From NCBI RefSeq assembly GCF_001579845.1, contig NZ_CP007440.1, forward strand, positions 2,360,001-2,424,000: a stretch of DNA of 64,000 nucleotides. Direction: 5' to 3'. Below, piece by piece: positions 2,199 through 26,912 of this stretch. The notes beneath the pieces were generated by a model. It was not told the DNA's origin, did no database searches, and saw only the letters and a list, made by a program, of their open reading frames with translations. This stretch comes from Rhodoplanes sp. Z2-YC6860 (GTDB lineage: Bacteria > Pseudomonadota > Alphaproteobacteria > Rhizobiales > Xanthobacteraceae). A program made the position numbers and the translations under genes. Every line of letters begins with the position of its first letter. Position 1 is the first letter of the stretch.

Positions 2199-2232
2199 TC
2201 GCAATTCTTTCTGCTTTTGCGTCTGTGACAGG

Positions 2233-3363: not shown

Positions 3364-3396
3364 CTTGAGTGACCTGTCGTTGCCTGCAGGCGCCCC

Positions 3397-11471: not shown

Positions 11472-12446
11472 CTAATTCGGAGCCATGCCAAGCGACTTCA
11501 CCAGAGGCCGGACGGTCTCGACTTCCGCCCTGATCAACTGACGCAACTCTTCCGGCGTCGCCGTCTTGGTCAGCACGCCGCTCTCCTGCAGCCGCGCCGC
11601 GAGCTGCGGCTCGCGCGACGCCGCGATGAATTCGCTGTTCAGGCGCTCCACGATCGCCGTCGGAGTGCCGGCCGGCGCCCACACCGCAAACCAGCCGCTC
11701 GCTTTCTTCTTGAGCTGATCGCTCTCGATCATGGTCGGCGTGTCGGGCGTGCCGCTCCAGCGGGTGGCGCCATCCTGCGCGAGAATCTTGGTTTTGTGCG
11801 CTTGAATGAACGGCTGTGCCACAATGTAGGAAATCATCGCCATGTCGATCCGCGATGAAACCAGATCCGTCATCAACGGATACGAGCCGCGATATTGCAC
11901 CATGGTGATCGGCAGCGCGTTGTCGAGCGACAGGATGACACTGTTGAAGTGCGCCGGCGAGCCGAACCCGGCAGAGCCGACATTGAGGCCGCTGGGCTTG
12001 CTCTTCCAGAGCTCCAGCAACTGCGGAATGGTGTTGGCGGGACTATCCGGCGGCACGGCGATGAAGTTCAACAGGTCAAACAGCGCCGCGACTGGTTGGA
12101 AGTCCTTCACCGCGTCGTAGGGAATGCGCTCCAGGAGCGGCTGCGCCGCGAGCGCCGTACCCGGATAGACCAACAGGGTGCGCCCGTCGGGGGCCGCATT
12201 CTTCACGCTCATCGCCCCGACCGCTCCTCCGCCAGCGGGACGGTTCTCGACCACCACGGTGAGCCCAAGTTTGCGGCCGAGCACCTCGGCATAAAGGCGC
12301 GATGTCACGTCGACGATGCCGCCAGCCGCGTTGCCCACGACCAGGGTGATCGTTCCGCTCGGCAGATCCTGCGCGGCCACCCGGCCCATGAGGCAAAGCA
12401 TCATCGCCAGCGCAATCAGGCTGCGCCTACCGAAGAGCACAAGCAT
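11472..12446 (-). CDS. Bug-family tripartite tricarboxylate transporter substrate-binding protein
   Basis: The 324-residue protein has a signal peptide ending at VAA-Q (residue 25) and a Bug-fold mature part. The ligand loop ITLVVGNAAGGIVDVTSR and the segment VVVENRPAGGGAVG are family hallmarks. Such proteins bind carboxylates in the periplasm and normally serve a TctA/TctB membrane pair, but none is encoded nearby. GGGAGG lies five bases before the ATG. It lies 47 bases downstream of a flavin monooxygenase gene on the same strand and converges on the thioredoxin-like gene. Confidence 0.92.
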   Translation of the reverse strand: MLVLFGRRSLIALAMMLCLMGRVAAQDLPSGTITLVVGNAAGGIVDVTSRLYAEVLGRKLGLTVVVENRPAGGGAVGAMSVKNAAPDGRTLLVYPGTALAAQPLLERIPYDAVKDFQPVAALFDLLNFIAVPPDSPANTIPQLLELWKSKPSGLNVGSAGFGSPAHFNSVILSLDNALPITMVQYRGSYPLMTDLVSSRIDMAMISYIVAQPFIQAHKTKILAQDGATRWSGTPDTPTMIESDQLKKKASGWFAVWAPAGTPTAIVERLNSEFIAASREPQLAARLQESGVLTKTATPEELRQLIRAEVETVRPLVKSLGMAPN

Positions 12447-12493
12447 CCGATCCTCCCCGAATAACGACGCGTTCTTCTTACTGGAAAGCGAGC

Positions 12494-13648
12494 TCAGTTC
12501 TTTTCACGCAACCCCATCCTGGCCAGCCGCGGCAGGACCTCATCGCAGAAGTACGGTACGTCGTTGAGGTAGTTCACGAACGACACCGCGAGTCCGCGGA
12601 AGCCGGCACGGCTATGGTTGGCAAACTCGGTTGCGATTTCATCCGGCGAACCGACGAAGGGATAGCCGCCGATTCCGCTCGACGCCTGAAGCATGCGCTT
12701 GGCTCTGAACTCGTCCGGCGCCGTGTTCTGCGGCGTGATGTTCTTGAGCGCCAGCATCTTCTCGATCGCGTTCCAATCCGCGCATTCGACATTGGCATAG
12801 TGGTGATATTCCTCGGCCTCGCGCCGCGAAGGCCTACAGATCACCTGGCCCTGGGTGTAGACCTCGATCTCGCGCCCATACTTGCGGCCGTTGGCCTTGA
12901 TGTCGCTGACGTATTTCACGATACGATTGAAGATCTGCTGCTCGTCCACCGCCTGCGAGGTGCCGGCGGCCGCCAGACGTGCGCCGCCGGTGGAGGTGAA
13001 AAAGGCGTCGCAGTTGCGCATCGCGAACGCCTGGCCGGCGCCCGATGAGCCGGCGTTGATGATCATCGGACGTGTTCCGCCGATCGGGCCGGGCTTTGCG
13101 CGGACGCCAGAGAGCTTGAAGTGACTGCCGTCGAAGTCGAAATCCTCGGTCGACCACGCGCGCTTGATCACGTCGAGCCATTCTTGCGCAAACTCGTAGC
13201 GGTCGTCGTGTTCGCGCTGCTGCATGCCGAACATCTGGAACTCGCCTTCGTTCCAGCCAGCCACGAGGTTAAGCCCGAAGCGGCCGTTACCGATGTGGTC
13301 GGCGGTGACCATCTCCTTGGCTGCGATCAGCGGATGGAACAGCGGGGCATGAACGGTGCCGAACACCGTGATCCGTTGCGTGGCGGCAAGCAGGCCGCAA
13401 GCCCAGGTCACGGTCTCGAGCGTGGTGCCATGAAAATCGCTGTCGCCGCCGTAGCCCTTCCATCGCCCGATGGGAAGGAGAAAATCGATGCCGCCCTCGT
13501 CGGCGATGCGCGCCATCTTGAGACAATCCGGCCATGTTGCCAGCCAGCGTTCCGGCACCAACGTGGCGGTGCGCGCCGAGGAGCAGTTCGCCCCAAACAG
13601 GCCGATTTTCAAAGCATTCTTGTTGTACATCTCGACGCGCTGGGACAT
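12494..13648 (-). CDS. LLM-class flavin-dependent monooxygenase, RutA-like
   Basis: The protein is a luciferase-like TIM-barrel FMN monooxygenase of 384 residues from the ATG at 13648. A GTG start 14 codons further upstream is possible. The segments GNGRFGLNLVAGWNEGEF and DRYEFAQEWLDVIKRAW match the group that holds pyrimidine monooxygenase RutA and dialkylsulfone monooxygenases. These use FMNH2 from a separate reductase and O2 to open C-N or C-S bonds. No flavin reductase gene is nearby. The neighbouring Bug and NMT1-like binding proteins suggest the substrate is imported. Confidence 0.87.
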   Translation of the reverse strand: MSQRVEMYNKNALKIGLFGANCSSARTATLVPERWLATWPDCLKMARIADEGGIDFLLPIGRWKGYGGDSDFHGTTLETVTWACGLLAATQRITVFGTVHAPLFHPLIAAKEMVTADHIGNGRFGLNLVAGWNEGEFQMFGMQQREHDDRYEFAQEWLDVIKRAWSTEDFDFDGSHFKLSGVRAKPGPIGGTRPMIINAGSSGAGQAFAMRNCDAFFTSTGGARLAAAGTSQAVDEQQIFNRIVKYVSDIKANGRKYGREIEVYTQGQVICRPSRREAEEYHHYANVECADWNAIEKMLALKNITPQNTAPDEFRAKRMLQASSGIGGYPFVGSPDEIATEFANHSRAGFRGLAVSFVNYLNDVPYFCDEVLPRLARMGLREKN

Positions 13649-13772
13649 CGATCCAGGCTCGGTCGGGGAGGCAATGGCGGCATCCTGCACGGCGTCAGAC
13701 TCGCTGCTTTTTGTTCTGCCCGATTTTGCGCGAAGGCTCGTTCCTTGTCGATGATGCGTGGGTGATCGGCTT

Positions 13773-14741
13773 TCAGCGCGGCAAATAGCTCAAATCGGTG
13801 AATGTCATCGACGCCGACTCGGGTTTGATTTCGCCCAGCTCGACAAGCGTTCGCGCGGTGGTTCGGACGATCTCTGCCGGAATTGCAAGCTTGCGGCTGA
13901 AGGGCTTCAACTCGCCGACGTAGTAGTCATAAGTCTCTTTGGCGATGTCCGACGCGACGTTGGTGTTTCGCACGAGAATGGCGATCGCCTCCTCGCGATT
14001 GGCCGGCTCGTACAGCCAGTCGACCGCGTCAGACAGCGCCTTGAGATAGGCCCGCGCGGTCTCAGGGTTGTCGCGCAGCCACTGCGGCCGCGCCAGGACC
14101 GTCAGGAAGCCGTAGTCCTTGCCATAGGCGCCGAGGTCAACGAGCTTGCGGTAGCCGTCTGCGGCGGCTCGGAAGTCGAATGGCTGTGTCAGCAGCGCCG
14201 CCTGTACGCTGCCTCCTGCAAGCGCCGCAAACCGGGCGGGCGTGGCGCCAGCATAGACCTGCTCGACATCGTGCGGCTGCATTCCCTGTTCTGTCAGCCA
14301 GCGGTTCCAGACGCTGGTGAGCAAGTCCTTGGCGAACGGCAGGATGATGCGTTTGCCCTTCATGTCGGCGGCCGACGTCACGTCTTTCGATGTCATGATG
14401 GAATAGGGATACTTGGTAACGGCGCCGCCGATCAGAACGGCGTTGCCGCCGTTGGCGATCGCGCGGATCGCCGTGTCGAAGGTCGAGGACGCGACATCGA
14501 ACGACCCGGCGACGAGCTGCTGCACGGTGTTGGCGACGTTGCCGACATAGATGGTCTCGGGCTCGACACCCTCGCGGCGGAAAAAACCTTTGTCGTTGGC
14601 AATGAAGTTCGCCCAGTTCGGCGCAGTCTTCGACACCTGACCGTCACTGACCTTCTTGACCGTCTGCGCTTGCAAGCTCGTGACCGGCAGGAGCGTGGCG
14701 GCGCAAATCGATAGCAGCAAAACGGGGCGTGCGAGTCCCAT
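13773..14741 (-). CDS. ABC transporter substrate-binding protein, NMT1/SsuA-like
   Basis: From the ATG at 14741 the protein has 322 residues: a signal peptide ending at LQA-Q (about residue 25), then an NMT1/TauA-type binding fold (NWANFIANDKGFFRREGVEPE, a typical beta1-helix1 region). The start is set by GGAAGGAG about seven bases upstream; a longer frame runs through the LysR gene in another phase and is not coding. Binding proteins of this class feed SsuB/SsuC-like ABC importers of sulfonates, pyrimidine precursors or aromatic acids. No permease or ATPase is adjacent. Confidence 0.88.
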   Translation of the reverse strand: MGLARPVLLLSICAATLLPVTSLQAQTVKKVSDGQVSKTAPNWANFIANDKGFFRREGVEPETIYVGNVANTVQQLVAGSFDVASSTFDTAIRAIANGGNAVLIGGAVTKYPYSIMTSKDVTSAADMKGKRIILPFAKDLLTSVWNRWLTEQGMQPHDVEQVYAGATPARFAALAGGSVQAALLTQPFDFRAAADGYRKLVDLGAYGKDYGFLTVLARPQWLRDNPETARAYLKALSDAVDWLYEPANREEAIAILVRNTNVASDIAKETYDYYVGELKPFSRKLAIPAEIVRTTARTLVELGEIKPESASMTFTDLSYLPR

Positions 14742-14947: not shown

Positions 14948-15865
14948 CTAGCTTGCAGCGGAGGTCGAGGCGAGGGCTCTGCGGAATTCCGCCAGGACGG
15001 CACTGACACCCGGTAGCATGGCCGTGTTGACCCGACGCAGCACCGCGAGTTCTCGACGCCATCGGGCGCCGCGCAGCGGTACTGCGCGAAGGGCCCCGTG
15101 CTTTCCTTCGTCGTGTATGGCCACCTGTGGAAGCAGGCTCACAAGGTTGCTGGAAGCGAGCACCGTCGTCAGCGTTTCGATCGAATTGGCGGTGAACGCC
15201 ACCGTTGGCAATTCGAGGTTGGCGGCAGCAAACAGCGCTTGAAAGTGCCGCCAGATCGTGCCGCCGCGTTCCTGCAAGGCCCAATCGTAGTCACGCAGAC
15301 TTTGCAAGGTCGGCGTTTTCATTTTCAGAACCGGGTGCGCGGCGCGAACGACGATGCGAATCTCGTCGGTCGCCAGTGGCGTTGCGCGTATATTCTCGTC
15401 GAGAAGGTTGGGGGTTACGGCGGCGATCGCGAAATCAATCTCACCGCGCACCAAGGCGCGTGTGAGCTGATGATTGGGGCCCTCGACCACATGCAGTTGA
15501 AGTCCGGGCGTCGTCTCGCGCACTCTTTTGATGACCATCGGCAACACCCCCGGGACGAGGCTTGGCAGAATCCCGACTCGCGCAAGGCCCTTCGATACGC
15601 CCCGCAATAAATCGATCTCTTCCAATGCGCGATGATATCCCGACTCCAATGCGGCGGCATGAGGCAGCAGCGAGCGTCCGAATGCCGTGAGCTCCATCCC
15701 GGTCGAATGCCGGACAAAGAGCTGGACCCCGAGCTGCTGCTCGAGTTTTCGCAGCGTCCGGCTCACGGCCGGCTGGGTGAGCGACAGCGTCGAGGCCGCG
15801 GCTCCCACGCTGCCGAGGCGTGCGACATTCAGAAACGCATTGAGCCCGCGATAATCGATGGTCAT
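14948..15865 (-). CDS. LysR-family transcriptional regulator
   Basis: The 305-residue protein has the LysR helix-turn-helix at residues 5-60 (FLNVARLGSVGAAASTLSLTQPAVSRTLRKLEQ read in two parts) and a C-terminal co-inducer domain from about residue 90. It is divergent from the amidohydrolase gene starting at 15952, with a palindrome right at its own start codon. The layout is the standard one for a LysR activator of a catabolic operon, so I infer that it controls the genes up to 24398 and itself. The inducer is unknown. Confidence 0.92.
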   Translation of the reverse strand: MTIDYRGLNAFLNVARLGSVGAAASTLSLTQPAVSRTLRKLEQQLGVQLFVRHSTGMELTAFGRSLLPHAAALESGYHRALEEIDLLRGVSKGLARVGILPSLVPGVLPMVIKRVRETTPGLQLHVVEGPNHQLTRALVRGEIDFAIAAVTPNLLDENIRATPLATDEIRIVVRAAHPVLKMKTPTLQSLRDYDWALQERGGTIWRHFQALFAAANLELPTVAFTANSIETLTTVLASSNLVSLLPQVAIHDEGKHGALRAVPLRGARWRRELAVLRRVNTAMLPGVSAVLAEFRRALASTSAAS

Positions 15866-15866
15866 G

Positions 15867-15879
15867 CATAATTGTTATG
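15867..15879. promoter_or_regulatory. Inverted repeat, candidate LysR operator
   Basis: CATAA-TTG-TTATG is a perfect inverted repeat with five-base arms, located two bases from the LysR start codon in the 86-base divergent gap. LysR proteins bind short AT-rich dyads in such gaps. The position would suit autorepression. No matching second site was seen closer to the amidohydrolase gene. Confidence 0.45.
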
Positions 15880-15951
15880 GCTTTGGAACCAAAAAGCAAT
15901 GGCGGAAACTCTGCGGCCGGCGGAAGCTGTCCGGGAGTTGAGGGATGTCCG

Positions 15952-17160
15952 ATGCCAACTGCTTACATCAACGGCCAAGTCATCGATGGGCGCGGCAAGG
16001 CCTATCAGGGTTACGTCATCGTTGATGGCGACAAGATTGCGGAGGTCGGGGCGGGGCATCCAGCGACGTTGAGCGCCAACGTGGAGCGGAAGGACCTGAC
16101 CGGACGTTCCATCCTTCCCGGCTTGATCGACTGTCACGTTCACTTGCGAAGCGATGGGCCTGCCGATCCTCGCGCTCAACAGGCCGGTGATACCGATGCG
16201 ATCGCGCTGTTGCGCTCGGCCCGCAACGCGCGCCGGACGCTCGAGTGCGGCGTGACCACGATCCGCGACTGCGGTTCACGCGGCGGCATCGACTTTGCGC
16301 TGCGCGCTGCCGCCCAGCAGGGTCTCTGTCAAACGCCGCGTTTGGTGCTCAGCGGCCTGATCATCTGCATGACCGGCGGGCACGGCTGGCAGCTCAGTAT
16401 CGAGGCCGACGGTCCCGACGCAGTGCGGCGCGCGGCACGCAGCCAGATCAAGGCCGGCGCCGACAACGTGAAGCTCATCGCCAGCGGCGGAATTCTGAGC
16501 CCCGGCAGCGAAATCGGCGCGCCGCAGCTGACCGTCGAGGAGATGCGGGCCGCGGCCGAGGAGGCCCACGCGGCGGGCAAGATCTGCTGCGCTCATGCGC
16601 ACGGTTCGACCGCCATCAAAAACGCGGTCAAGGCCGGTGTCGACTCGGTCGAGCACGGCTATCTGCTCGACGACGAGGGCATCGAGCTGATGCTTGAGCG
16701 CGGGACTTATCTCGTCGCGACGTCTGCGGCGGTCCGCAACGTGGTCAAGCATGGCACCGGAGCGGGCGTTCGGCCGGATGTGGTCCGCAAGGCGCAATCC
16801 GCCATCGATCAGCACATCGCGAGCTTCAAACGCGCTCACCAGGCCGGCGTCAAACTTGCCATGGGCACCGACACCGGCGTGCCATACACTCAGCACGGCA
16901 ACAACCTCGACGAGGTGGTCTATCTCGTGGAGATGGGGCTGTCGCCCATACAGGCGCTAACGGCTGCAACCTTCGATGCAGCCAAGCTCCTGAAGATGGA
17001 CGGCCAGATCGGCAGCCTCGAGGCCGGAAAGCTAGCCGACTTTGTGGTCGTCGATGGCGATCCACTCGCGGATATTGCCATGCTGCAGGACAAGAGCCGT
17101 ATTCTGACCGTCGCCGTCGGCGGCCAGATCATGGTCGAACGGCAAGCGGTCAAAAGGTAA
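15952..17160 (+). CDS. Metal-dependent amidohydrolase, imidazolonepropionase/Xaa-Pro dipeptidase-like
   Basis: The 402-residue protein has the amidohydrolase metal site: CHVH with His62 and His64, Lys174 in NVKLIASGG (a likely carbamylated bridge), His215/His217, His235 and Asp307 in GTDTG. The fold is a TIM barrel flanked by the small beta domain. Enzymes closest in pattern cleave N-acyl or dipeptide bonds such as Xaa-Pro. The ATG at 15952 has AGGG eight bases upstream and is preferred over a start 75 bases earlier. It is the first gene of the LysR-linked operon and has a paralogue at its far end (23148-24398). Confidence 0.9.
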   Translation: MPTAYINGQVIDGRGKAYQGYVIVDGDKIAEVGAGHPATLSANVERKDLTGRSILPGLIDCHVHLRSDGPADPRAQQAGDTDAIALLRSARNARRTLECGVTTIRDCGSRGGIDFALRAAAQQGLCQTPRLVLSGLIICMTGGHGWQLSIEADGPDAVRRAARSQIKAGADNVKLIASGGILSPGSEIGAPQLTVEEMRAAAEEAHAAGKICCAHAHGSTAIKNAVKAGVDSVEHGYLLDDEGIELMLERGTYLVATSAAVRNVVKHGTGAGVRPDVVRKAQSAIDQHIASFKRAHQAGVKLAMGTDTGVPYTQHGNNLDEVVYLVEMGLSPIQALTAATFDAAKLLKMDGQIGSLEAGKLADFVVVDGDPLADIAMLQDKSRILTVAVGGQIMVERQAVKR

Positions 17161-17170
17161 GCGCGCAGAT

Positions 17171-18082
17171 ATGGAACAGGCCGACAAGATCTGGATGGAT
17201 GGCAAGATCGTCGCATGGAACGACGCCCACGTTCATCTCATCAGCAACACGCTGCAATACGGCTTCGGGGTGTTCGAGGGCATCCGCTGCTACAAGACCG
17301 ACGCCGGCCCCGCCGTGTTCCGGCTCAAGGAGCATCTCGTCCGGCTGCACAACTCGGCGAAAATCCTTGGATTTGAGGTTCCCTACAGCATCGAGCAGTT
17401 GACCGACGCGACGCGGCAGATCATTCGCGAAAATCGCTTCGAGCAGTGCTACATCCGACCGATCGCCTACATCGGCTACGGCGGCATGGGCCTTGCTTAC
17501 AGCGATTGTACGATCAATGTCTCGATCGCGGTGTGGCACTGGGGCGAATATGTCGGCCACGGCACGCTGGAGAATGGCAGCAGGGTCAGGGTTTCGAGCT
17601 ACGTGCGCCAGCATATCAATACCAACATGTCCAAGGCCAAAGCGTGCGGCAATTACATGCTGTTCCAGATGGCGCGCACCGAAGCCAAGCGTGACGGCTA
17701 CGATGAGGCGATCCTGCTCGACGCCAACGGGCATGTCGCGGAAGGCTCGGTCGAGCACATTTTCCTGGTGCGTGACGGCGCCTTGGTCACGCCGCCGTTG
17801 ACCCATCTGCTCGACGGCATCACCCGCGATGCCGTCATTCGCCTGGCGCGGGCGCGCGACATCGAAGTGCGCGAGGAGCTGTTTTCCCGCGACTACATGC
17901 TGACATCTGACGAGGTGTTCTTCGCCGGCACCGGCGCCGAGGTGACGCCAGTCGTCGAGATCGACAACCGCAAAATCGGCGATGGCCGTCGCGGTCCGCT
18001 CACGACCGCAGTCCAGAAGGATTTCTTCGATGCGGTCTATGGCCGCACCAACCGCTGGGCCGAGTGGCGGACCGCGGTATGA
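17171..18082 (+). CDS. Branched-chain amino acid aminotransferase (IlvE family)
   Basis: This 303-residue PLP enzyme of fold type IV has the Schiff-base lysine Lys157 in KAKACGNYMLFQ and the substrate segments TLQYGFGVFEGIRCY near residue 28 and VAEGSVEHIF near 185. The family moves an amino group between branched-chain amino acids and 2-oxoglutarate in the cytoplasm. It follows the amidohydrolase by 10 bases. In this catabolic operon it more probably deaminates an amino acid released by the hydrolases than serves biosynthesis; D-amino-acid or 4-amino-4-deoxychorismate activities in the same fold are alternatives. Confidence 0.9.
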   Translation: MEQADKIWMDGKIVAWNDAHVHLISNTLQYGFGVFEGIRCYKTDAGPAVFRLKEHLVRLHNSAKILGFEVPYSIEQLTDATRQIIRENRFEQCYIRPIAYIGYGGMGLAYSDCTINVSIAVWHWGEYVGHGTLENGSRVRVSSYVRQHINTNMSKAKACGNYMLFQMARTEAKRDGYDEAILLDANGHVAEGSVEHIFLVRDGALVTPPLTHLLDGITRDAVIRLARARDIEVREELFSRDYMLTSDEVFFAGTGAEVTPVVEIDNRKIGDGRRGPLTTAVQKDFFDAVYGRTNRWAEWRTAV

Positions 18083-18103
18083 GGCACTGACCGGGAACAA
18101 GCC

Positions 18104-19261
18104 ATGGCACCCATGCCGCCTGACGAATATGCCAACAGGATCAAGCGCGCCCGCGATCTGATGCGCGAGCGTGGCATGGACGGTCTGATCGTCACGGACC
18201 CCACCCACTACTCCTATTACACGGGGCACAAGGTGGCGTCGTGGATGCGGTCGCGCCCGTCGATCCTCGTTCTGCCGTTGGAGGGAGCGCCGGCGCTCAT
18301 CACCTGGTCGGGACCGGAGATGTTCTCGCGGCTGTACCGTCAGCCGTTCCCCTCCTGGGTCGAGGATCGTCTGATCTATCCGGAGGTGCCGTTCACGCCG
18401 GAGCCTCGTGTCGATTGGGGCATCGCTGATCTTGTGAAGTCGCGCGGTCTTGCCGCGGGCCGTCTCGGGATCGAGCTCGGACGTGAAACCTGGCTCGGCA
18501 TCGCGGTTGTTGATTTCGAATTGCTCAAAGAGCAATTGCCGCAGGCGCGGTTTGTAGACTCGGGTCCCGTGATCTGGGGATGCCGGCTGATCAAATCCGA
18601 ATGGGAAATCGACTGCATGCGCCAGGCCTGTGAGATTGGCGGAGCCGCATGGCGTCGGGCGTTCGAGGATCTGAAGCCCGGCATCTCCGCCCTGAGCGTG
18701 CAGAAGAATGTGCTGCGCTACTACATTGAAGGCGGCGCCGATCTGACCTCGGAGCCGCCGCTCGTGCTGGGCGCGACCGGGCCGAACCGCACGTTCCAAA
18801 ATGGCGACGTGATGTACATCGACGGCGGCTGCAATGTCTCGGGCTACAAGATGGATTTCGCCCGCCGGGCGGTGTTCGGCCAGCCGTCAGCCCGTCAGCG
18901 GTCCGAGCACGACGGGATGTGGGGTATTCTCAACGAGATCATCGAACGCATGAAGCCGGGTGTCGCGGTGCGCGAACTGTTCGAGTATTCGCAGCGTCGC
19001 CTTGCCGAGCACCCCGAATGGCGAAATTACTCGGACCACCCGTCCAAGCGCATCGGTCACGGCATCGGCCTGGAAAACGAGCCGCCATCGATCTCAGGAA
19101 CCGACGACACTGTGCTTCAAGTGCGGATGGCGCTGACGCCGGAGCCGAAAATCGAAAGCGTCGATGGTCTGCTCAATCCCGAAGAGCATGTCGTGATCCG
19201 AGATTCGGGCTGCGAAATCCTGTCCGCCAAATCGGATTGGAAGCTCCATGTCGTTGCTTGA
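18104..19261 (+). CDS. M24-family metallopeptidase (Xaa-Pro peptidase-like)
   Basis: The 385-residue protein has the N-terminal creatinase-like domain (to about 160) and a pita-bread catalytic domain. All five metal ligands are present: Asp240 and Asp251 (DGGCNVSGYKMD), His319 (GHGIGLENEP), Glu347 (LTPEP) and Glu361 (NPEEHVVI). The family includes Xaa-Pro peptidases, creatinase and ectoine hydrolase, all of which split amide bonds next to a ring or substituted nitrogen. Its pairing with an ornithine-cyclodeaminase-like gene recalls ectoine-degradation loci, but the other ectoine genes are not seen here. Confidence 0.9.
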   Translation: MAPMPPDEYANRIKRARDLMRERGMDGLIVTDPTHYSYYTGHKVASWMRSRPSILVLPLEGAPALITWSGPEMFSRLYRQPFPSWVEDRLIYPEVPFTPEPRVDWGIADLVKSRGLAAGRLGIELGRETWLGIAVVDFELLKEQLPQARFVDSGPVIWGCRLIKSEWEIDCMRQACEIGGAAWRRAFEDLKPGISALSVQKNVLRYYIEGGADLTSEPPLVLGATGPNRTFQNGDVMYIDGGCNVSGYKMDFARRAVFGQPSARQRSEHDGMWGILNEIIERMKPGVAVRELFEYSQRRLAEHPEWRNYSDHPSKRIGHGIGLENEPPSISGTDDTVLQVRMALTPEPKIESVDGLLNPEEHVVIRDSGCEILSAKSDWKLHVVA

Positions 19262-19276
19262 TCAGGTTTTCGCCCC

Positions 19277-20251
19277 ATGAAGATCAGGTTGCTCAGCGAG
19301 AAGGACGTCCGGTCGGTCTCGCCGGCGTTGCCGGAAATTGTGGCGCTGGTTGAGCAGGCCTACAGGCTCGACGGCGAAGGCCGGGCGGAGGTGCCGACCA
19401 AGATTGGCGTCCATCCCGAGCGCGCCAATACGTTTCTTCATGCCATGCCGGCCTGGGTGGGAGGCGCGCGGGCGCTGGGCATGAAATGGGTGTCTTATTT
19501 CCCGGGGAATCTGGCCCATGGTCAGCCGGATTCGACGGGCATCATCATCCTGAATGATCCCGACATCGGACTGCCCTGCTGCATTATGGAGGGCATGTAC
19601 GTGACGTTTATCCGAACCGCGGCCTGTGGGGCGGTTGCGGCCAAGCACGTCCTGCAGCGGCCGCCACGCAGCCTGGGTCTGATCGGCTGCGGCGGGCTCG
19701 GGCTGTGGTCGCTGCGCGTCATGGCCGCGGTGTTTCCGACCATCGAGCAGGTGTTGGTGTCATCGCGCACCGCGGGGTCGCGCGAACGCTTCTGCGCCGA
19801 CATGTCGAAGGAAGGCAGATGGCGCATGACGCCGGTTGACGATCCGGTCGAGGCCCTTCGCAATGTCGATATCGTGGTGAGCTCGGTGCCTCCCGGGGAC
19901 GTGAGGCCGGTCGATGGCCGCGCGCTTGCGCCCGGATCGGTGTTCATTCCGCTTGATCTCGTGAATTCGTGGCAGGACAACGTGCTGACCGAAGTCGATC
20001 AGGTGGCGGCCGACAATCCGGCGCATTTTGTCGCGCAGGTTAAGGGCCGTCGCGCGGCGGCGGCGGCTGGGCTCAAACCACCCATGAGCATTCAGGACGC
20101 GGTCGCCGGCAAGACAAACCTCGCTTCATCTGGCGCGCGGACCATGATTGCGGTTTGCGGCATTGCCAGCACTGATGTGGTGGTCGGCTGGGAAATCTAC
20201 CGTCGAGCTTGTTCCGCCCATGTGGGGCTGGAATTCGACATGCAGGGGTAA
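19277..20251 (+). CDS. Ornithine cyclodeaminase/mu-crystallin family protein
   Basis: This 324-residue protein has the family substrate Lys in GMKWVSYFPGN (about residue 72), the segment FIRTAACGAVAAKHV, and a Rossmann NAD(P) site GLIGCGGLGLWS (about residues 135-146). The family holds ornithine cyclodeaminase, alanine dehydrogenase and ketimine reductases, all acting on amino or imino acids. It starts 15 bases after the peptidase gene and ends four bases before the TRAP binding protein, so it is in the same operon. The reaction here is probably reduction or cyclising deamination of an amino acid released by the hydrolases. Confidence 0.9.
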   Translation: MKIRLLSEKDVRSVSPALPEIVALVEQAYRLDGEGRAEVPTKIGVHPERANTFLHAMPAWVGGARALGMKWVSYFPGNLAHGQPDSTGIIILNDPDIGLPCCIMEGMYVTFIRTAACGAVAAKHVLQRPPRSLGLIGCGGLGLWSLRVMAAVFPTIEQVLVSSRTAGSRERFCADMSKEGRWRMTPVDDPVEALRNVDIVVSSVPPGDVRPVDGRALAPGSVFIPLDLVNSWQDNVLTEVDQVAADNPAHFVAQVKGRRAAAAAGLKPPMSIQDAVAGKTNLASSGARTMIAVCGIASTDVVVGWEIYRRACSAHVGLEFDMQG

Positions 20252-20255
20252 GGTC

Positions 20256-21263
20256 ATGAACCGGGATGCGATCATGCGTACGCGAAAGATCATCGTCGCC
20301 ACGGCTTTGGTGCTGGCCGGTTTGGCCCTGTCCTTGCCCCTATCCTGGCCCGCCAGGGCCGAGACGGTTCTCAAAGCCATCACCTACGCCCCACCTTCGA
20401 AATTCGAAGACAGCATGGTGATCTTTCGGAAATGGGTCGACAAGGTGAATGCCGCCGGCAAAGGCGAGCTTCGCATCGAGCTGCTCGGTGGTCCCGAGGT
20501 CTTCGCGGTGAGCGATCAGATCAATGCGCTCAGCAAGGGACTGGTCGACGTGGTGATGACCTTCTCGGTGCACACCCCGATCGTGCCCGAGATCGACACG
20601 TCGGGCCTTTCCGACATCACGCCGACGGAAGAGCGCAACAACGGCTATCTGGCCCTGCTCGACAAGGCGCACGAGAAGATCAATGTCAAAGTGATCGGCC
20701 GCACCGCGACCAATTCTGGCTTCTATATTTTCTCCAAGCAGCCGATCAACAAGCTGGCTGATTTCAATGGGGTGAAAATCCGCTCGCACTCCGGTTACGA
20801 CCCGCTGTTCAAGAAGGTCGGGGCCATTCCGATCGGGATGAATATCTCGGAAATCTACGGCGCACTGGAGCGTGGCGTGGTGCAGGCCGCGCCGTATCCC
20901 ATTTTCGTCTATGACATGGGGCTGGCGGAGGTCGCGAAATACGCGCTGGCGGATGCGTTCTGGCGGTCGCACACCACGTTCACCTACGTCAACCTCCGCA
21001 AGTTCAACTCTCTCTCTCCGAAACTGCAGAAGATCCTGGTCGACGCGCAGATCGACAACGAAAAGGATCTGGCGGCGGTCAATGCCGATCTCATCGCCAC
21101 GGAGCGCGCCAAGCTCGAGAAAGCGGGGATGACGTTCACCCATCTTTCGCCGGACGAGGCGAAGAAGTGGCACGACATGGCCAATGAATCCCGTTTCGAC
21201 GCCCTGGCCAGCAAGATCGGCCAGGAGCAGATGGCCAAGATCAAGTCGCTGATCGCTCGCTAG
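20256..21263 (+). CDS. TRAP transporter substrate-binding protein, DctP family
   Basis: From the ATG at 20256 the protein has 335 residues, with a signal peptide ending at ARA-E (about residue 35). An ATG 18 bases later is the alternative. The mature protein matches DctP: KLADFNGVKIRSHSGYDPLFKKVGA includes the Arg that clamps the ligand carboxylate in this family, and QAAPYPIFVYDMG follows. AGGGGTAAGG precedes the start. It brings a carboxylate-bearing solute to the DctQM membrane subunits encoded next. Confidence 0.92.
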   Translation: MNRDAIMRTRKIIVATALVLAGLALSLPLSWPARAETVLKAITYAPPSKFEDSMVIFRKWVDKVNAAGKGELRIELLGGPEVFAVSDQINALSKGLVDVVMTFSVHTPIVPEIDTSGLSDITPTEERNNGYLALLDKAHEKINVKVIGRTATNSGFYIFSKQPINKLADFNGVKIRSHSGYDPLFKKVGAIPIGMNISEIYGALERGVVQAAPYPIFVYDMGLAEVAKYALADAFWRSHTTFTYVNLRKFNSLSPKLQKILVDAQIDNEKDLAAVNADLIATERAKLEKAGMTFTHLSPDEAKKWHDMANESRFDALASKIGQEQMAKIKSLIAR

Positions 21264-21301
21264 ATGACGCCCGCGCCGATATCGCTGAAAGGGACGGATA
21301 C

Positions 21302-21823
21302 ATGAGGCTTGCGGAAACGGCAGGCCGCGTCTTCGACCGGGTTCTGGACGTCTGCGCCTGGATCGGCTGCGGCATGCTGGCGTTTCAGGTCGTCAGCGTG
21401 TCGTTCGAGATCGTCTGCCGTTACTTCTTCAACACGTCATTCAGCGTCATCACGCCACTCAACGAGTGGAGTCTCGTTTATCTCACGATGCTCGGTGCCG
21501 CGTGGCTGCAGCGCGAGGGCGGGCATACCAGCGACGACTCGATCGTGACCCTGCTGCCGCCGTGGGTCCACCGGCTGACGCGCTGGGTCGGGTGGGTGCT
21601 GGCCATCGTGACCTGCGTTTTGCTGGCCTGGTACGGCGCGCTCGCGACCTGGGACAATTATTCGAAGCAGGCCTACGACTTTTTCAAGCTGCCCAATTTC
21701 CCGATTTATCTCGTCTACATCGTCATTCCGATCGGCAGTCTGCTCTGGCTCATTCAATTGCTGCGCAAACAGAGCCGTCCGTCATCGGCGGATGAGGGTG
21801 AAGACACGGGCGGGGACATCTGA
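21302..21823 (+). CDS. TRAP transporter small permease, DctQ family
   Basis: The 173-residue membrane protein has four hydrophobic segments (about 17-40, 55-70, 92-115 and 137-156), the DctQ topology. The motif AAWLQREGGHTSDD is the conserved loop with charged residues found in small TRAP subunits. It stabilises the large subunit. It lies 38 bases after the binding protein gene and nine bases before the large permease gene. Confidence 0.9.
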   Translation: MRLAETAGRVFDRVLDVCAWIGCGMLAFQVVSVSFEIVCRYFFNTSFSVITPLNEWSLVYLTMLGAAWLQREGGHTSDDSIVTLLPPWVHRLTRWVGWVLAIVTCVLLAWYGALATWDNYSKQAYDFFKLPNFPIYLVYIVIPIGSLLWLIQLLRKQSRPSSADEGEDTGGDI

Positions 21824-21832
21824 GAGCCGGTC

Positions 21833-23143
21833 ATGGAATGGTACACCGCGTTCTCCCTGCTGATGGCCAGCTTCTTCGTGTTGGTGCTGCTCGGCGTTCC
21901 CGTCGTCTTCGCGTTTTTTGGCACCAACGTCGTCTTCCTCGCCTATTTCATGGGGCCGCCGGGCTTTGAGCTGCTGATCGACAGCGTCTATGGCAGCCTG
22001 TCGGTTTTCGTGCTGCTGCCGATCACCATGTTCATCCTTCAGGGCGAAATCCTCTTCCGGACCGGTCTGGTCACCAAGATGATCGACGCTCTCGACTGTT
22101 GGCTCGGTGCGGTGCCGGGCCGGCTGGCGCTGCTGGCGGTGGGCTCCGGCACCATACTGGCTTCGCTATCGGGCGCGAGCATCGGCACCACGGCGATGCT
22201 GACGCGGACGCTTGCGCCGGCCATGCAGGAGCGTGGCTACAGTACGAAGATGAGTGTCGGGCCGCTCCTGGGCAGCGGCGGTCTCGCGGTGATGATGCCG
22301 CATAGCGCGCTGGGCGTCATTCTCGCGGTGATCGCCGGCGTTTCGGTCGGAAAGCTCCTGATCGCGATCATCATCCCGGGCTTCCTGCTGGCGCTTGGCT
22401 ACGTGGTCTACATCGTGTGGGTTTGTGCATTCGATCCCGCCGAGGCGCCGAAATACACCGCCAAGTTCATTCCGCTCGGCGAGCGGCTGGTGCTCACAGT
22501 CAAATACGTCATCCCGCTGACGGTCCTCATCGTCGCGATGATTGCCGTCATTTTTCTCGGTGTTGCGACGCCGACTGAGGCCGCGTCCCTCGGCACCTTT
22601 GCGTCATTCGCGCTGGCCGCGATCTATGGACGGCTGACCTGGACAGCGACGCGCGACGCGATGTTCTCGACCTTGAAGATTTCGGTGATGGTGCTGGCGA
22701 TTCTTGCCGCATCACAGGCGTTCACCCAGCTGCTGGCTTACACCGGCTCGGCGCAGAAGCTTGTGCAGGTTGCGGGCGCGCTGCCGGTTCCGCCGATCTG
22801 GGTCATCATCCTGATGCACTTCGTCACCCTGCTGCTGGGCGGTCCGATCGGCGGCATTCCCCTGATCATGATGACCATTCCGATCTTTCTCCCGGTGGTG
22901 AAGGCACTGGGCTATGACCCGATCTGGTTCTGCACCGCCATGCTGCTCAACGTCGAGCTTGCGCAGATCACGCCGCCCTTCGGCATCTTGCTTTATGTGG
23001 TCCGGGGCATCATGACGAAGACGTCGATGGGCGAGATCACGCGAGCGGCCATCCCGATCATCGTGATCCAATTGATCGTGATGGCGCTTCTGATCGGAAT
23101 TCCGCCACTGTCGCTGTGGCTGCCCGGATTCATGAATCGGTAG
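21833..23143 (+). CDS. TRAP transporter large permease, DctM family
   Basis: This 436-residue protein has around 12 membrane segments and DctM hallmarks: MFILQGEILFRTGL, GSGTILASLSGASIGTTAML and the C-terminal TPPFGILLYVVRG. It is the ion-coupled (usually sodium) transport subunit. Full length for the family. It ends four bases before the second amidohydrolase, so uptake and hydrolysis are directly linked in the operon. Confidence 0.93.
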   Translation: MEWYTAFSLLMASFFVLVLLGVPVVFAFFGTNVVFLAYFMGPPGFELLIDSVYGSLSVFVLLPITMFILQGEILFRTGLVTKMIDALDCWLGAVPGRLALLAVGSGTILASLSGASIGTTAMLTRTLAPAMQERGYSTKMSVGPLLGSGGLAVMMPHSALGVILAVIAGVSVGKLLIAIIIPGFLLALGYVVYIVWVCAFDPAEAPKYTAKFIPLGERLVLTVKYVIPLTVLIVAMIAVIFLGVATPTEAASLGTFASFALAAIYGRLTWTATRDAMFSTLKISVMVLAILAASQAFTQLLAYTGSAQKLVQVAGALPVPPIWVIILMHFVTLLLGGPIGGIPLIMMTIPIFLPVVKALGYDPIWFCTAMLLNVELAQITPPFGILLYVVRGIMTKTSMGEITRAAIPIIVIQLIVMALLIGIPPLSLWLPGFMNR

Positions 23144-23147
23144 CGGG

Positions 23148-24398
23148 ATGCCAACGACGCCTGACCGAACCGTCTATCACAACGGCCGTCTCATCGACGG
23201 TCACCGTCACATTGCCAACGGATATCTGGTGACCGAGGGCGCGACGATTGTCGCGGTCGGGGCCGGTGATCCCAGGCGGGGCGCAGCATCGGCCGGCGCT
23301 CAGAACGTCGATCTGGCCGGCCGGACCCTGCTGCCGGGTTTCATCGATTGCCACGTCCACCTGACGATGAGTGCCGAAGCGGCTCCGCGAGCCATCGTCT
23401 CGCCAGCCGATCAGATGGTGGCGGTCTTGCAGGCTTCGACGAACGCGCTCAGGACGCTACACGGCGGTGTGACGACCGTGCGCGATTGCGGTGCGCCGCA
23501 TGGCATCGATTTCGCCTTACGGCGGGCCGCGGAGGAGGGGCTTTGCGTCACGCCGCGCCTCGTGCTCAGCGGCCGGGCTCTATGTATGACGGGCGGGCAC
23601 GGCTGGCATCTGATCGGCCGTGAGGCAGACGGCGCCGACGGATTGCGCCGCGCGGCCCGCGAGCAACTGAAGGCTGGGGCCGACAACGTGAAGCTGATCG
23701 CAAGCGGCGGTATCCTCACCCCAGGCACCAACATTGGCAATCCGCAGTTCACGACCGACGAGATGAAGGCCGCCGTCGACGAGGCCCATTGTGCCGGCAA
23801 GACCGCCAACGCGCACGCGCACGGCGCGGAGGGCATCAAACGCGCAACGCTCGCCGGCGTGGATTCTGTCGAGCACTGCTATTTCATCGATCCGGAAGGC
23901 ATCGAGATGATGCTTGAGCGCAGCACGGTTCTGGTCGCGACATCTGCGGCGGTTCGCAATGTGGTGTCCTACGGTGTTGCAGCAGGAATTCCTTCGCACA
24001 TCGCCGAAAAAGCGCAATCAGCGATCAGCGCCCACGTATCGGGTTTCAAAGCGGCGCATGCTGCAGGCATACGCTTGGCGATGGGCACGGATTCCGGCGT
24101 GCCGTTTACCCGCCACGGCAACAATCTCGACGAGCTCAAATACCTCGTCGAGATGGGACTGTCGCCGCAGGAAGCGATCAGGGTGGCGACGTCCGACAGC
24201 GCAAAGCTTCTCAAGCTCGATGGGACCGTTGGTTCTCTTGATGAGGGCAAAAACGCTGATCTCGTGGTGGTCGAGGGAAACCCGCTGGACGACATCGCAG
24301 TCTTATGCCAGCGCGATAAAATCCGGCGTGTGATCCTGAATGGTCGAACGGTGCTGGACCGCGATATCAGCGCGTTTCTGGTGGGAGCAGGACACTAG
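23148..24398 (+). CDS. Metal-dependent amidohydrolase, paralogue of the one at 15952-17160
   Basis: The 416-residue enzyme keeps the same metal ligands as its paralogue: His69/His71 in CHVHL, Lys182, His223/His225, His243 and Asp315 in GTDSG. Whole stretches are the same in both, for example ADNVKLIASGGIL and LVATSAAVRNVV, whereas the loop just after CHVHL differs strongly and could change substrate choice. It closes the operon, starting four bases after DctM. The two copies probably split related amides. The gene is followed by a weak terminator-like hairpin. Confidence 0.9.
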   Translation: MPTTPDRTVYHNGRLIDGHRHIANGYLVTEGATIVAVGAGDPRRGAASAGAQNVDLAGRTLLPGFIDCHVHLTMSAEAAPRAIVSPADQMVAVLQASTNALRTLHGGVTTVRDCGAPHGIDFALRRAAEEGLCVTPRLVLSGRALCMTGGHGWHLIGREADGADGLRRAAREQLKAGADNVKLIASGGILTPGTNIGNPQFTTDEMKAAVDEAHCAGKTANAHAHGAEGIKRATLAGVDSVEHCYFIDPEGIEMMLERSTVLVATSAAVRNVVSYGVAAGIPSHIAEKAQSAISAHVSGFKAAHAAGIRLAMGTDSGVPFTRHGNNLDELKYLVEMGLSPQEAIRVATSDSAKLLKLDGTVGSLDEGKNADLVVVEGNPLDDIAVLCQRDKIRRVILNGRTVLDRDISAFLVGAGH

Positions 24399-24436: not shown

Positions 24437-24453
24437 GGCCATCAGGCCTTTTT
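24437..24453 (+). terminator. Weak hairpin followed by T-run
   Basis: GGCC-ATCA-GGCC followed by TTTTT lies 39 bases after the amidohydrolase stop, between convergent genes. The four-base stem is short for a factor-independent terminator, and it overlaps the last codons of the methyltransferase gene on the other strand. It is a plausible but weak stop signal for the TRAP operon. Confidence 0.35.
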
Positions 24454-26364
24454 CTGCACCCAGAACTCGTACATCCCAGCGAAGGAGGTGGGATTGCGCT
24501 GTTCGAAGTCGTGCCAGCGATCCAAATCGAGCCCAGCCGGATCGCCGGGGAAGCGGTGCCTGAAGCGAGACATCATAAGATCATCGGTTTGCATGCCGAG
24601 AAACCGAAGTCCGTTCGCGTCGAGGAAGGCTTTGATCGCCGGAAGCGTCAAGCAATGTTCCATGCGATGGAAAAGCAGGTCGCGACATTCACTGGTGCTG
24701 AAGAATGACGGATAACTGGTAACCGAACGTTGCTCCGACCCTTCTTTGGCCGACATCAGCTCTTGGCGGAACGCTCTGATCTCGTCTGGGCTGTCGCCCA
24801 AACCGCGCTTCGTTATCACTCGACGAACCGCCGAAATATCTTGTCGTGCAGTCTCGCTGTAGAAGCCCAGGTGCATGACTCCTGACGGTCGCAACATTGA
24901 CAGCAGCCGCTGCCAGCCTTCCCACGGGTCTCCAAGATGATGCAGCACGCCGGTGCTTTCGATCAGATCGAAGCTGAGACCGGTCGTCGGCAACGCCATG
25001 ATGTCGGCTTGGGCGTATTCGATCGCGGTCAAACCCGCAGAGCGCGATTGACGTTGGGCAAATCCGAGACTGGCCAAACTGAGATCGACTGCAAGGATGC
25101 GCGCTCCGGCAAAGCGCTGCGCTGTCTCGACCGACTGCTGCCCGGTGCCGCAGCCGGCGATCAGGATATCGACATCGGCGCCGCGGCCGAGTTCTCGGAA
25201 CGGCGCCGATGGAAAGCGGCCTCGGACGAAGGCATCGAGCGTCGTCGAGGCGCCGGGCCGGGCAGGCTTGATCCAGCGCGGATAAGGGCTTTCCTCGTAG
25301 TGCGCGCGCACATGCAGGGATGTCGCATCGTCGATTGGCGTAAGCTGCTTCGTCGCATTCCGCAGCTTTGCCTCTTCATGGGGCTCGGCAACCTGACGCC
25401 GGAGCATGGTACGCACGACGTCCGGCCAGCCGAACTCGAGCAGACGTGCAGCGCCAGGGATCGCGTGAAGTGATCCATAGCAGCCGGCTGCCAAAAGCCA
25501 CGATGCCGGCGGTGCTGTTCCGGCATCGATGGCCTTGGACAAACGATCTTGAAGCTGCGCCGCGGCCCGTGCTTCTGCCTCGGACGCAGCAAACACGTAA
25601 TCGTTGAAGAAGCACTGGCAGGCCAGCGCTGCAGCGAACGCTATGACGTCATCGTTATCGAACGCTGCGCCGGCTTCGGCCTTCAGCAACAACAAGCCAC
25701 GAACGCGCGTCAACAAGCGTTCCAACTCGATGTCGCAGATCGGGCACGACTCCAGCAGAAATCGAAGCACGCGGTCTGAAGCAACCGCAGTCATTCCGAT
25801 CGTTCCGAAGAGCTCCTGCTCGGTCAGCGGCCGTGGCCAGGCTTTTGACGAACGATCGGCGGCTGCACGAATAGCGGGATTGAGCCTCAGAAAGCCGACG
25901 CTGGCCCGTGCAAGATCGATGGGCCGTGCCCAGGGTTCCGCCAGCGCGTTGGGCAACTGACTGCGCAGTCGGCCGATTTGCGGGTCCGACGTCAGCGCTT
26001 CTTCATAGGCCCGAGCCGCGGCCTCCCGGCGGCCCTGCTGCCTGAGCAGCGCAACCATCGATATGCGTGCCGCCGTATCGTCGGGCTTCAAGGCCACGGC
26101 GCGGCGAAGATGCACCGCCGCCAAATCAAGTTCGTCACGCCCCATCAGGATGCAGCCGAGGCCACGCTGAGCTGTCGCTGACTTAGGGTTGAGCCCAACG
26201 GCCTTGCCGAACATTGCCTCGGCTTTGGCAAACTCTCCGGCTCTCTGAAGTTCGACCGCCATCGCGAGGGCGCTGCGAGCCTCCGCCAGTCGCGCATTCG
26301 TTCGGTCGGTATCAAAGGTCGGCTGGCCGAAGCTGCGGGCAATCCGCCGGCTTTTCCGGTTCAT
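24442..26364 (-). CDS. TPR-repeat protein with C-terminal SAM-dependent methyltransferase domain
   Basis: From the ATG at 26364 the protein has 640 residues. Residues about 20-120 form tetratricopeptide repeats (KAEAMFGKAVGLNPKSA, LRRAVALKPDDTAA). After a middle region of unknown fold, a class I methyltransferase begins near residue 395 with motif I ILIAGCGTG and later LIESTGVLHHL. The start is placed at MNRKSRR because repeat proteins of this kind often begin so; the frame extends 28 codons more. Such proteins probably methylate a protein or surface substrate held by the repeats; the target is unknown. It stands alone. Confidence 0.8.
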   Translation of the reverse strand: MNRKSRRIARSFGQPTFDTDRTNARLAEARSALAMAVELQRAGEFAKAEAMFGKAVGLNPKSATAQRGLGCILMGRDELDLAAVHLRRAVALKPDDTAARISMVALLRQQGRREAAARAYEEALTSDPQIGRLRSQLPNALAEPWARPIDLARASVGFLRLNPAIRAAADRSSKAWPRPLTEQELFGTIGMTAVASDRVLRFLLESCPICDIELERLLTRVRGLLLLKAEAGAAFDNDDVIAFAAALACQCFFNDYVFAASEAEARAAAQLQDRLSKAIDAGTAPPASWLLAAGCYGSLHAIPGAARLLEFGWPDVVRTMLRRQVAEPHEEAKLRNATKQLTPIDDATSLHVRAHYEESPYPRWIKPARPGASTTLDAFVRGRFPSAPFRELGRGADVDILIAGCGTGQQSVETAQRFAGARILAVDLSLASLGFAQRQSRSAGLTAIEYAQADIMALPTTGLSFDLIESTGVLHHLGDPWEGWQRLLSMLRPSGVMHLGFYSETARQDISAVRRVITKRGLGDSPDEIRAFRQELMSAKEGSEQRSVTSYPSFFSTSECRDLLFHRMEHCLTLPAIKAFLDANGLRFLGMQTDDLMMSRFRHRFPGDPAGLDLDRWHDFEQRNPTSFAGMYEFWVQKKA

Positions 26365-26912
26365 CGTGGCAGCTCTGGTCAGAGAGTTTATTTTCGCGTC
26401 GACGAGAATCCAGGCCTGGCGCAATGAGGCGCCGTCGGCCTTCATCAAAAGGTACAGATTAGGCGGACATGAACACGGCTTCGCCGCAGATGAAGTGCTG
26501 CGATAGATCGAAGCTTATCGTCGCCGGTATCGACTGGTTCAGGCAAAAAGTCGCAGACCAGTCATTTGCACGTCAGGGAAATCCCTTGTTCTTGTCAGGA
26601 TAAATCGCCGTTGGTCGGTTTTCCGGCTTGGAATAGTGCTCTCTGAATCGACGAACTACAGAAGCCTGCGAAACGTGAACCGCGTCATCTCGAGCGTCGA
26701 GTGGAGATCGATGGGCCCGCCATGCGCCCGCGCAATCTCCAATGCGATATAGCAACCAGGACAAGCCCTCGTCGATCAGAGCGCAGCCGTCTCACGCGTG
26801 AATGGCGCGAGAGACGTTGCAGCGCGGCCCCTTGGAATCGCGGAGCGAGCGTTGGCCTCGGATGGTTCTAGGAGGTGCCCGCGGGTTTGTTGAGCGCGAA
26901 CAGATTGGCTCC
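26365..26912. other. Long stretch with only decayed coding sequence
   Basis: Apart from the histidine-kinase remnant given separately, I find no intact gene here. Reading frames are short on both strands. GC content falls in the middle (about 26510-26640). The stretch begins the degenerate zone that continues to about 28200. Confidence 0.5.
26656..26754 (-). pseudogene. Remnant of a sensor histidine kinase C-terminus
   Basis: On the minus strand a 32-residue frame ending in TAG reads CYIALEIARAHGGPIDLHST and then LEMTRFTFRRLL. This matches the end of a HATPase domain, where kinases normally have GLGLYIAREIARAHGG...GTRFTVRLP. The upstream GLGL part is out of frame or lost, and no phospho-acceptor domain is present. 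It is too short to be functional and is most easily explained as what is left of a deleted two-component gene. Chance similarity is possible but the match covers two motifs in the right order. Confidence 0.6.

Follow-up and report, generated by a model that had tools for sequence, protein, structure and literature searches.

A rare, uncharacterised catabolic cassette in Rhodoplanes sp. Z2-YC6860 combining a TRAP importer, two M38 amidohydrolases and a branched-chain aminotransferase

The ectoine/5-hydroxyectoine operon of Ruegeria pomeroyi (UehABC, EutABCDE, Ssd and Atf, the last of which we take to be an aminotransferase) places a tripartite ATP-independent periplasmic (TRAP) importer, an M24-fold hydrolase, an OCD-family protein (EutC, to judge by the name of its model), a deacylase and an aminotransferase in one regulated unit. 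Here we describe a gene set that shares these components in Rhodoplanes sp. Z2-YC6860, contained in a stretch of 64,000 nucleotides (positions 2,360,001-2,424,000 of the 8.19-Mb single-contig genome; henceforth the window). In this set, identified from a list of open reading frames (ORFs) and from Pfam and NCBIfam scans, a divergent LysR-type regulator gene on the minus strand is followed by eight closely packed plus-strand genes in the order AmhA, IlvE, M24, OCD, DctP, DctQ, DctM and AmhB (Table 1). Unlike the R. pomeroyi operon, it has two M38 enzymes rather than EutE, a LysR rather than the MocR/GabR-type EnuR, and a branched-chain amino acid aminotransferase (BCAT) rather than Atf; furthermore, while the R. 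pomeroyi operon has EutA and EutB, no gene resembling either is among the nine, and the M24 and OCD proteins fall below the cut-offs of the EutD and EutC models (see below).

We read this unit as a catabolic operon under LysR control whose substrate is a carboxylated compound; an amide bond, N-acyl or peptidyl, would join an L-amino acid of hydrophobic and probably branched-chain type to the rest of the molecule. We give this reading about an even chance (roughly 0.5). The food molecule is likely to be a hydrophobic amino acid with an N-acyl or peptidyl substituent, because the best solved-structure match of both amidohydrolases is the M38 dipeptidase 2QS8 (Sgx9355) and because the aminotransferase is of the branched-chain type. 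In the accessible part of a paper on ochratoxinase, 2QS8 is listed as an Xaa-hydrophobic dipeptidase and Sgx9355e (the suffix is spelled differently in text and table) is stated to cleave dipeptides with a C-terminal Ile, Leu, Phe, Tyr, Val, Met or Trp, and also Thr (PMC11342369). Within the open-licence PMC literature we recognised no paper treating this gene combination; PMC4103551, in the portion available, names single proteome spots only.

A nine-gene unit and its variant forms

The original prediction, made from the letters of the window, had proposed these genes, including the LysR gene, as one unit with gaps of 4-38 bases, and had treated absence of the set from related genomes as grounds for giving it up. 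All of the named genes were found where it had placed them, and the plus-strand gaps measure 10, 21, 15, 4, 38, 9 and 4 bases (with the DctP start at 20256). Five further genomes have the full set of nine genes in this order (loci L005, L007, L008, L009 and L011; six counting the window), among them a Xanthobacteraceae metagenome-assembled genome (MAG; L007), Aquibium (L008), Paracoccus (L009) and Nitratireductor arenosus (L011). This recurrence rules out a chance cluster: the gene set is real and conserved.

It is also rare. Searching order-level relatives with the OCD protein (E <= 1e-60) returned 2 of 297 genomes, namely the window's own and G098, in which the whole set is present, its order unchanged, with identities of 38-74%. 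With the M24 protein, at the same threshold, only the window's own genome was found among 385 genomes at class level and again among 398 at phylum level, and at E <= 1e-70 one of the 8 genomes in the family of G098 and 2 of 121 near relatives were matched; the second near relative has the same sequence as L007, which therefore belongs to the window's genus. Finally, a two-row M24 profile run against a collection of 84,980 species matched 85 stretches, 12 of which encode relatives, a count that is a lower bound because the scan relied on two seven-residue patterns. Seven of these 12 are at least 60% identical over their best segment, and the other five (L014-L018), at 24-25% identity, were dropped.

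The ends of the unit are sharp. When the stretches were compared all against all, no flanking ORF of at least 90 amino acids was common to the six nine-gene genomes above 90 bits. The only two flank matches above that score were an ABC ATPase (window and L010) and a GGT-like flanking ORF of L009 that matched the GGT-like gene of L010, and a distant (25.6%) NMT1-type protein lies near the operons of both the window and L010. No close relative of M24, AmhA or OCD was found in the plasmid collection (best identities 31.2%, 40.4% and 30.9%, respectively, at the E limits set). Given the sparse genome matches and the lack of a shared flanking ORF among the six, the nine-gene unit is rare, patchy and sharp-ended, and because its spread is patchy it has probably been passed between lineages.

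Variant forms also occur. In two Alcaligenaceae genomes, Pusillimonas caeni (L010) and a MAG (L013), the gene set is split over two loci: the first contains a MarR-like regulator, IlvE, a GGT-like hydrolase, AmhA, M24, OCD and DctPQM, with AmhB absent from it, and the second (L061:10494-14762, minus strand; L062:115-4463, plus strand) contains AmhB together with further copies of IlvE and OCD and a distinct DctP (DctP2). In L061 the second locus is preceded by a divergent LysR of another kind; by eye, that of L062 lies directly upstream of leuC-leuD-leuB-like genes. An AmhB search in the family of these two genomes (E <= 1e-90) matched 4 of 250 genomes, and the two new ones (L072 and L073) carry a short form consisting of LysR, IlvE, M24, OCD, AmhB and DctP2, each with a single M38 match and without AmhA; evidently AmhB is able to serve alongside M24 on its own. 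The fetched stretches of L072 and L073 gave no match to DctQ or DctM, whose genes may have been lost or displaced. Reverse-transcriptase-like or transposase-like ORFs, recognised by eye, lie just downstream of DctP2 in both (L072:6743-8113; L073:13041-15592), at the place expected for those permease genes. The M24 gene of L073 (7687-8836) is frameshifted near 7908, through sequencing error or decay; the frame is open at the near-identical locus L072. In a further MAG (L012), a partial OCD gene, a BCAT and M24 share a 7-kb contig. Altogether, IlvE/BCAT, M24 and OCD occupy one locus in 11 genomes, and an M38 gene of the AmhA/AmhB kind accompanies them in 10 of the 11 (both AmhA and AmhB in 8, AmhB alone in 2, and neither found in 1).

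Predicted enzymes and importer

AmhA and AmhB both have the metal site of the M38 superfamily (HxH, Lys, His, His, Asp), and H62, H64, K174, H215, H235 and D307, the metal ligands expected of the family, are invariant in 18 of 18 AmhA/AmhB sequences. They belong to the same superfamily as 2QS8, Cc2672 and the ochratoxin amidohydrolases, with near full-length alignment and the metal ligands kept; 2QS8 is also the best solved-structure match of a four-row profile. Unlike 2QS8 and its relatives, AmhA and AmhB are paired within an operon and score below the cut-off of their nearest NCBIfam model, the M38 Xaa-Pro dipeptidase NF051886 (345.3 and 321.1 bits, respectively, cut-off 500 bits). A review, in the part accessible, groups related M38 enzymes with aminoacylases and N-acyl-proline hydrolases (PMC11511702). 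In an M38 tree a 100/100 branch separates the eight AmhA rows from AmhB. We used only this split and did not trust the root, because the three outgroup rows are too distant (one end branch reaches 9.01, and the rows do not form one side of a branch). Judged by this tree, AmhA and AmhB are old, separate paralogues, and their long retention together suggests that they differ in role.

The window IlvE scores 395.3 bits against the type I model TIGR01122 (cut-off 245.55). BCAT cut-offs were passed in 4 of the 4 loci scanned (type I in the window, L010 and L061; ilvE_II in L012, at 337.6 bits with a cut-off of 250.05), and the aminotransferases of the remaining loci were assigned by identity to the window IlvE. 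Since the next match to this protein is only 36-41% identical in the six nine-gene genomes, the operon appears from sequence comparison to hold a dedicated BCAT copy; a housekeeping role is ruled out, as the operon IlvE is distinct from the next BCAT in these genomes. Because L012 carries the other BCAT type, this function has probably been recruited at least twice. An aminotransferase tree (L012 omitted) did not reject a single clade of the eight type I operon rows (p-AU, approximately unbiased test, 0.284), which says little because 2 of the 11 comparison rows (L030 and L031) lie in second loci of the betaproteobacteria.

The M24 protein shares the pita-bread fold and the five metal ligands of prolidase and aminopeptidase P (M24B), and these ligands (D240, D251, H319, E347 and E361) are kept in 10 of 10 M24 sequences. 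Unlike in M24B enzymes, both catalytic His positions (PHG and LExHE) and the following Arg position are replaced or deleted: in alignment with 1wy2 and 1pv9 the PHG His falls in a gap, the second His is N325 (Ser in L072) and the Arg after it aligns with S329. These two His and the Arg are, we assume, catalytic or substrate residues of prolidase. An AlphaFold model of the protein (mean predicted confidence, pLDDT, of 79, with residues 312-331, part of the site, below 50) was closest in a Foldseek ranking to EutD/DoeA (6twj, E 4.1e-23, 21% identity), then to prolidases (1wy2, E 2.7e-21), with creatinases and the dimethylsulfoniopropionate lyase DddP lower down. The protein looks like an active metal enzyme but not a convincing peptidase.

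In the original prediction the next gene was labelled cyclodeaminase-like, and this label is doubtful. The OCD protein scored 137.2 bits against the OCD-type alanine dehydrogenase model TIGR02371 (cut-off 409.15) and 128.3 bits against SbnB (TIGR03944, cut-off 326.9), compared with 64.1 bits against EutC (TIGR02992, cut-off 471.65); although both higher scores lie below their own cut-offs, by sequence the protein resembles alanine dehydrogenase or SbnB more than a cyclodeaminase. It shares the OCD-family fold with archaeal alanine dehydrogenase (1omo) and SbnB, and its K42, K70 and R113 align with a Lys, a Lys and an Arg of 1omo. Unlike in 1omo, the Arg of the LRAMPA motif is replaced, by His in 8 of 12 and Asp in 4 of 12 OCD sequences (L012 lacks this part). 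This site varies within the family, because the pyrroline-2-carboxylate reductase 6t3e also differs there, with Leu at the LRAMPA Arg and Arg at the position of K42.

DctP, DctQ and DctM are adjacent and each exceeds its Pfam cut-off, as expected of a TRAP importer. The nearest solved DctP chain is 4mnc/4mni (Polaromonas Bpro_4736), which is also nearest in a fold ranking of the DctP model (mediocre, with a mean pLDDT of 70), and DctP2 of L061 matches it at E 6.6e-92. Benzoylformate is a candidate ligand of 4mnc/4mni but is not relied on here. In both AmhA loci of the betaproteobacteria a gene for a GGT-like Ntn hydrolase is added (L010:7094-8689 and L013:4779-6371). Its products score 338.4 and 347.3 bits against TIGR00066, below the cut-off of 357.85, and the one from L010 has as its nearest structure 2nlz, deposited under the name cephalosporin acylase, and carries Ser at the position of an Arg of E. 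coli GGT that is presumably R114. The ligand of 4mnc/4mni was not found in the literature searched, including the accessible part of PMC5812351.

Regulatory region, gene calls and surroundings

A CAT-N11-ATG box occurs in all six LysR/amhA gaps, and since the pattern was drawn from the alignment of these same gaps, this count is a description and not an independent test. Outside the gaps, the 594 kb searched contained the box only within overlapping copies of the same regions; in the window there is 1 match against 0.03 expected. Its position is not constant: in the window and L007 it overlaps the LysR start codon as assigned, whereas in the remaining four it sits mid-gap. LysR sites typically have the form T-N11-A, and the box is a probable LysR operator. 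We set the AmhA start at ATG 15952 rather than at ATG 15877 of the ORF list because relatives align from the equivalent of 15952 and because ATG 15877 falls in the conserved box.

Table 1. Features of the nine-gene unit in the window
Feature	Position	Strand	Evidence and remarks
LysR-type regulator	14948..15865	-	Pfam LysR_substrate and HTH_1; homologue at the same place in L005, L007, L008, L009 and L011
CAT-N11-ATG box (CATGCNNAANNNNTATG), putative LysR operator	15863..15879	.	Overlaps assigned LysR start codon
AmhA, M38 amidohydrolase with HxH/Lys/His/His/Asp metal site	15952..17160	+	Pfam Amidohydro_1; best PDB match 2QS8
Branched-chain amino acid aminotransferase, IlvE type I	17171..18082	+	TIGR01122
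M24-fold metal hydrolase, undescribed subfamily	18104..19261	+	Pfam Peptidase_M24; nearest fold EutD/DoeA
OCD/mu-crystallin family NAD(P)-type dehydrogenase	19277..20251	+	Pfam OCD_Mu_crystall; AlaDH and SbnB are the closest models, neither reaching its cut-off
TRAP substrate-binding protein DctP	20256 (or 20274)..21263	+	Pfam DctP; nearest solved chain 4mnc/4mni
TRAP small permease DctQ	21302..21823	+	Pfam DctQ
TRAP large permease DctM	21833..23143	+	Pfam DctM
AmhB, M38 amidohydrolase	23148..24398	+	Pfam Amidohydro_1; 59% identical to AmhA; best PDB match 2QS8

Past AmhB lies a long ORF on the opposite strand (24442-26448). Promoter and terminator scans gave no excess over shuffled sequence (2 matches vs 2.1, and 3 vs 6.9, respectively). 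The G+C content is 0.62-0.63 in the operon and 0.60-0.64 throughout the window, which has no tRNA gene, ruling out a genomic island marked by a tRNA or by odd composition. On the other side of the LysR gene, minus-strand genes reading away from the operon (11472-14735) encode a Bug/TctC-like protein (by eye), a luciferase-like monooxygenase and an NMT1/SsuA-type binding protein, and further out (1053-6253, minus strand) a tandem pair of SBP_bac_8 binding-protein genes lies beside a single ABC permease/ATPase set.

Candidate substrates and competing readings

The original prediction had seen in these genes a route that imports an N-substituted amino acid, cleaves its amide and deaminates the product. 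Apart from the cyclodeaminase label, this route is plausible and is the best general reading, which we narrow to a hydrophobic, likely branched-chain, amino acid. Under it, the TRAP importer would bring in the anionic substrate, and AmhA and AmhB, as metal-dependent carboxypeptidase- or aminoacylase-like hydrolases with differing preferences, would release the free amino acid; IlvE would then pass the amino group of this product on to a 2-oxo acid. Next, the dehydrogenase of the OCD family might free the nitrogen (in the manner of alanine dehydrogenase, releasing ammonium together with the transaminase) or oxidise an N-substituted intermediate, and the M24-fold hydrolase might open or trim an unusual acyl half; for these two proteins the roles are guesses. 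In the two betaproteobacteria the GGT-like Ntn acylase would join the set. The hydrophobic amino acid is argued from the agreement between the 2QS8 match and the branched-chain aminotransferase.

Several observations weigh against this reading. The lead of 2QS8 over the Arg/Lys-specific Cc2672 (3mtw) is narrow for AmhA (232.6 vs 225.6 bits), though clearer for AmhB (222.1 vs 197.4 bits), and with Cc2672 scoring nearly as high for AmhA, the transfer of specificity from 2QS8 is weak. The nearest DctP structure, 4mnc/4mni, is distant from the window protein (E 7e-29), far more so than from DctP2 of L061. The operon has no further gene for the keto acid or the acyl half. In the L012 genome, a MAG, no AmhA/AmhB relative was found at E <= 1e-25, so the M38 step is not universal, and in G1025 and G1061 the only M38 gene of this kind is AmhB, with a single match per genome at E <= 1e-90.

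A more novel reading, which we advance tentatively and at distinctly less than even odds, is an undescribed pathway in which the M24 protein, without the prolidase histidines, and the OCD protein, with its altered substrate site, carry out reactions new to their families and together take apart the acyl portion of a naturally occurring conjugate, an N-acylated branched-chain amino acid.

The likeness to ectoine degradation that the original prediction had noted for M24 and OCD is borne out by the fold of the former and contradicted by the model scores. Besides the EutC score given above, the M24 protein reaches only 73 bits against the EutD/DoeA model TIGR02993 (cut-off 613), and no match passes this cut-off genome-wide; membership in that pathway is ruled out on these grounds (EutE and EutB were not searched for). 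A diverged, ectoine-like route is a different matter, and would have the M24 protein open a cyclic amidine or lactam, an amidohydrolase deacylate in place of EutE, and the aminotransferase and dehydrogenase finish. We consider it unlikely, though not to be dismissed lightly: the M24 model comes closest in fold to EutD/DoeA, but prolidase 1wy2 follows closely, and 4mnc is a far better match for DctP than are 2vpn and 3fxb, which we take to be the ectoine proteins TeaA and UehA. The R. pomeroyi operon likewise groups a TRAP importer, a ring hydrolase, a deacetylase and downstream Ssd and Atf (PMC8739950, in the part accessible), but the EutD and EutC models remain far out of reach of the Rhodoplanes proteins.

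Scavenging of ordinary imidodipeptides or dipeptides, with AmhA, AmhB and M24 as peptidases of overlapping range and IlvE and OCD disposing of the amino acids, would account for M38 matches that include Xaa-Pro and Arg/Lys dipeptidases and for the presence of an M24 fold. It is nevertheless improbable, as all 10 M24 sequences lack both prolidase catalytic His and the Arg position, the importer is of the TRAP type, usual for organic acids, and not a peptide transporter, and the unit is rare while dipeptide use is common. Least probable of all is a reading in which the operon breaks down an N-carboxyalkyl amino acid that bears an amide as well and its OCD protein attacks the secondary amine (opine-like) link, for although the SbnB model spans residues 4-319 of the OCD protein (alanine dehydrogenase, 5-205) and tops the second copy in L061, the window protein is below the SbnB cut-off and alanine dehydrogenase scores slightly higher.

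The unit is a rare, uncharacterised catabolic cassette. If our preferred reading is true, it would represent a new pathway for amide-linked nutrients, comprising enzymes of four kinds, each open to its own test of specificity, and finding its substrate would be a direct task given the conserved binding protein, the box resembling an operator and the enzyme core. For M24 and OCD the evidence does not favour the plain Pfam reading (peptidase and cyclodeaminase), and if they do act in such a pathway, these proteins would broaden the known catalysis of both families.

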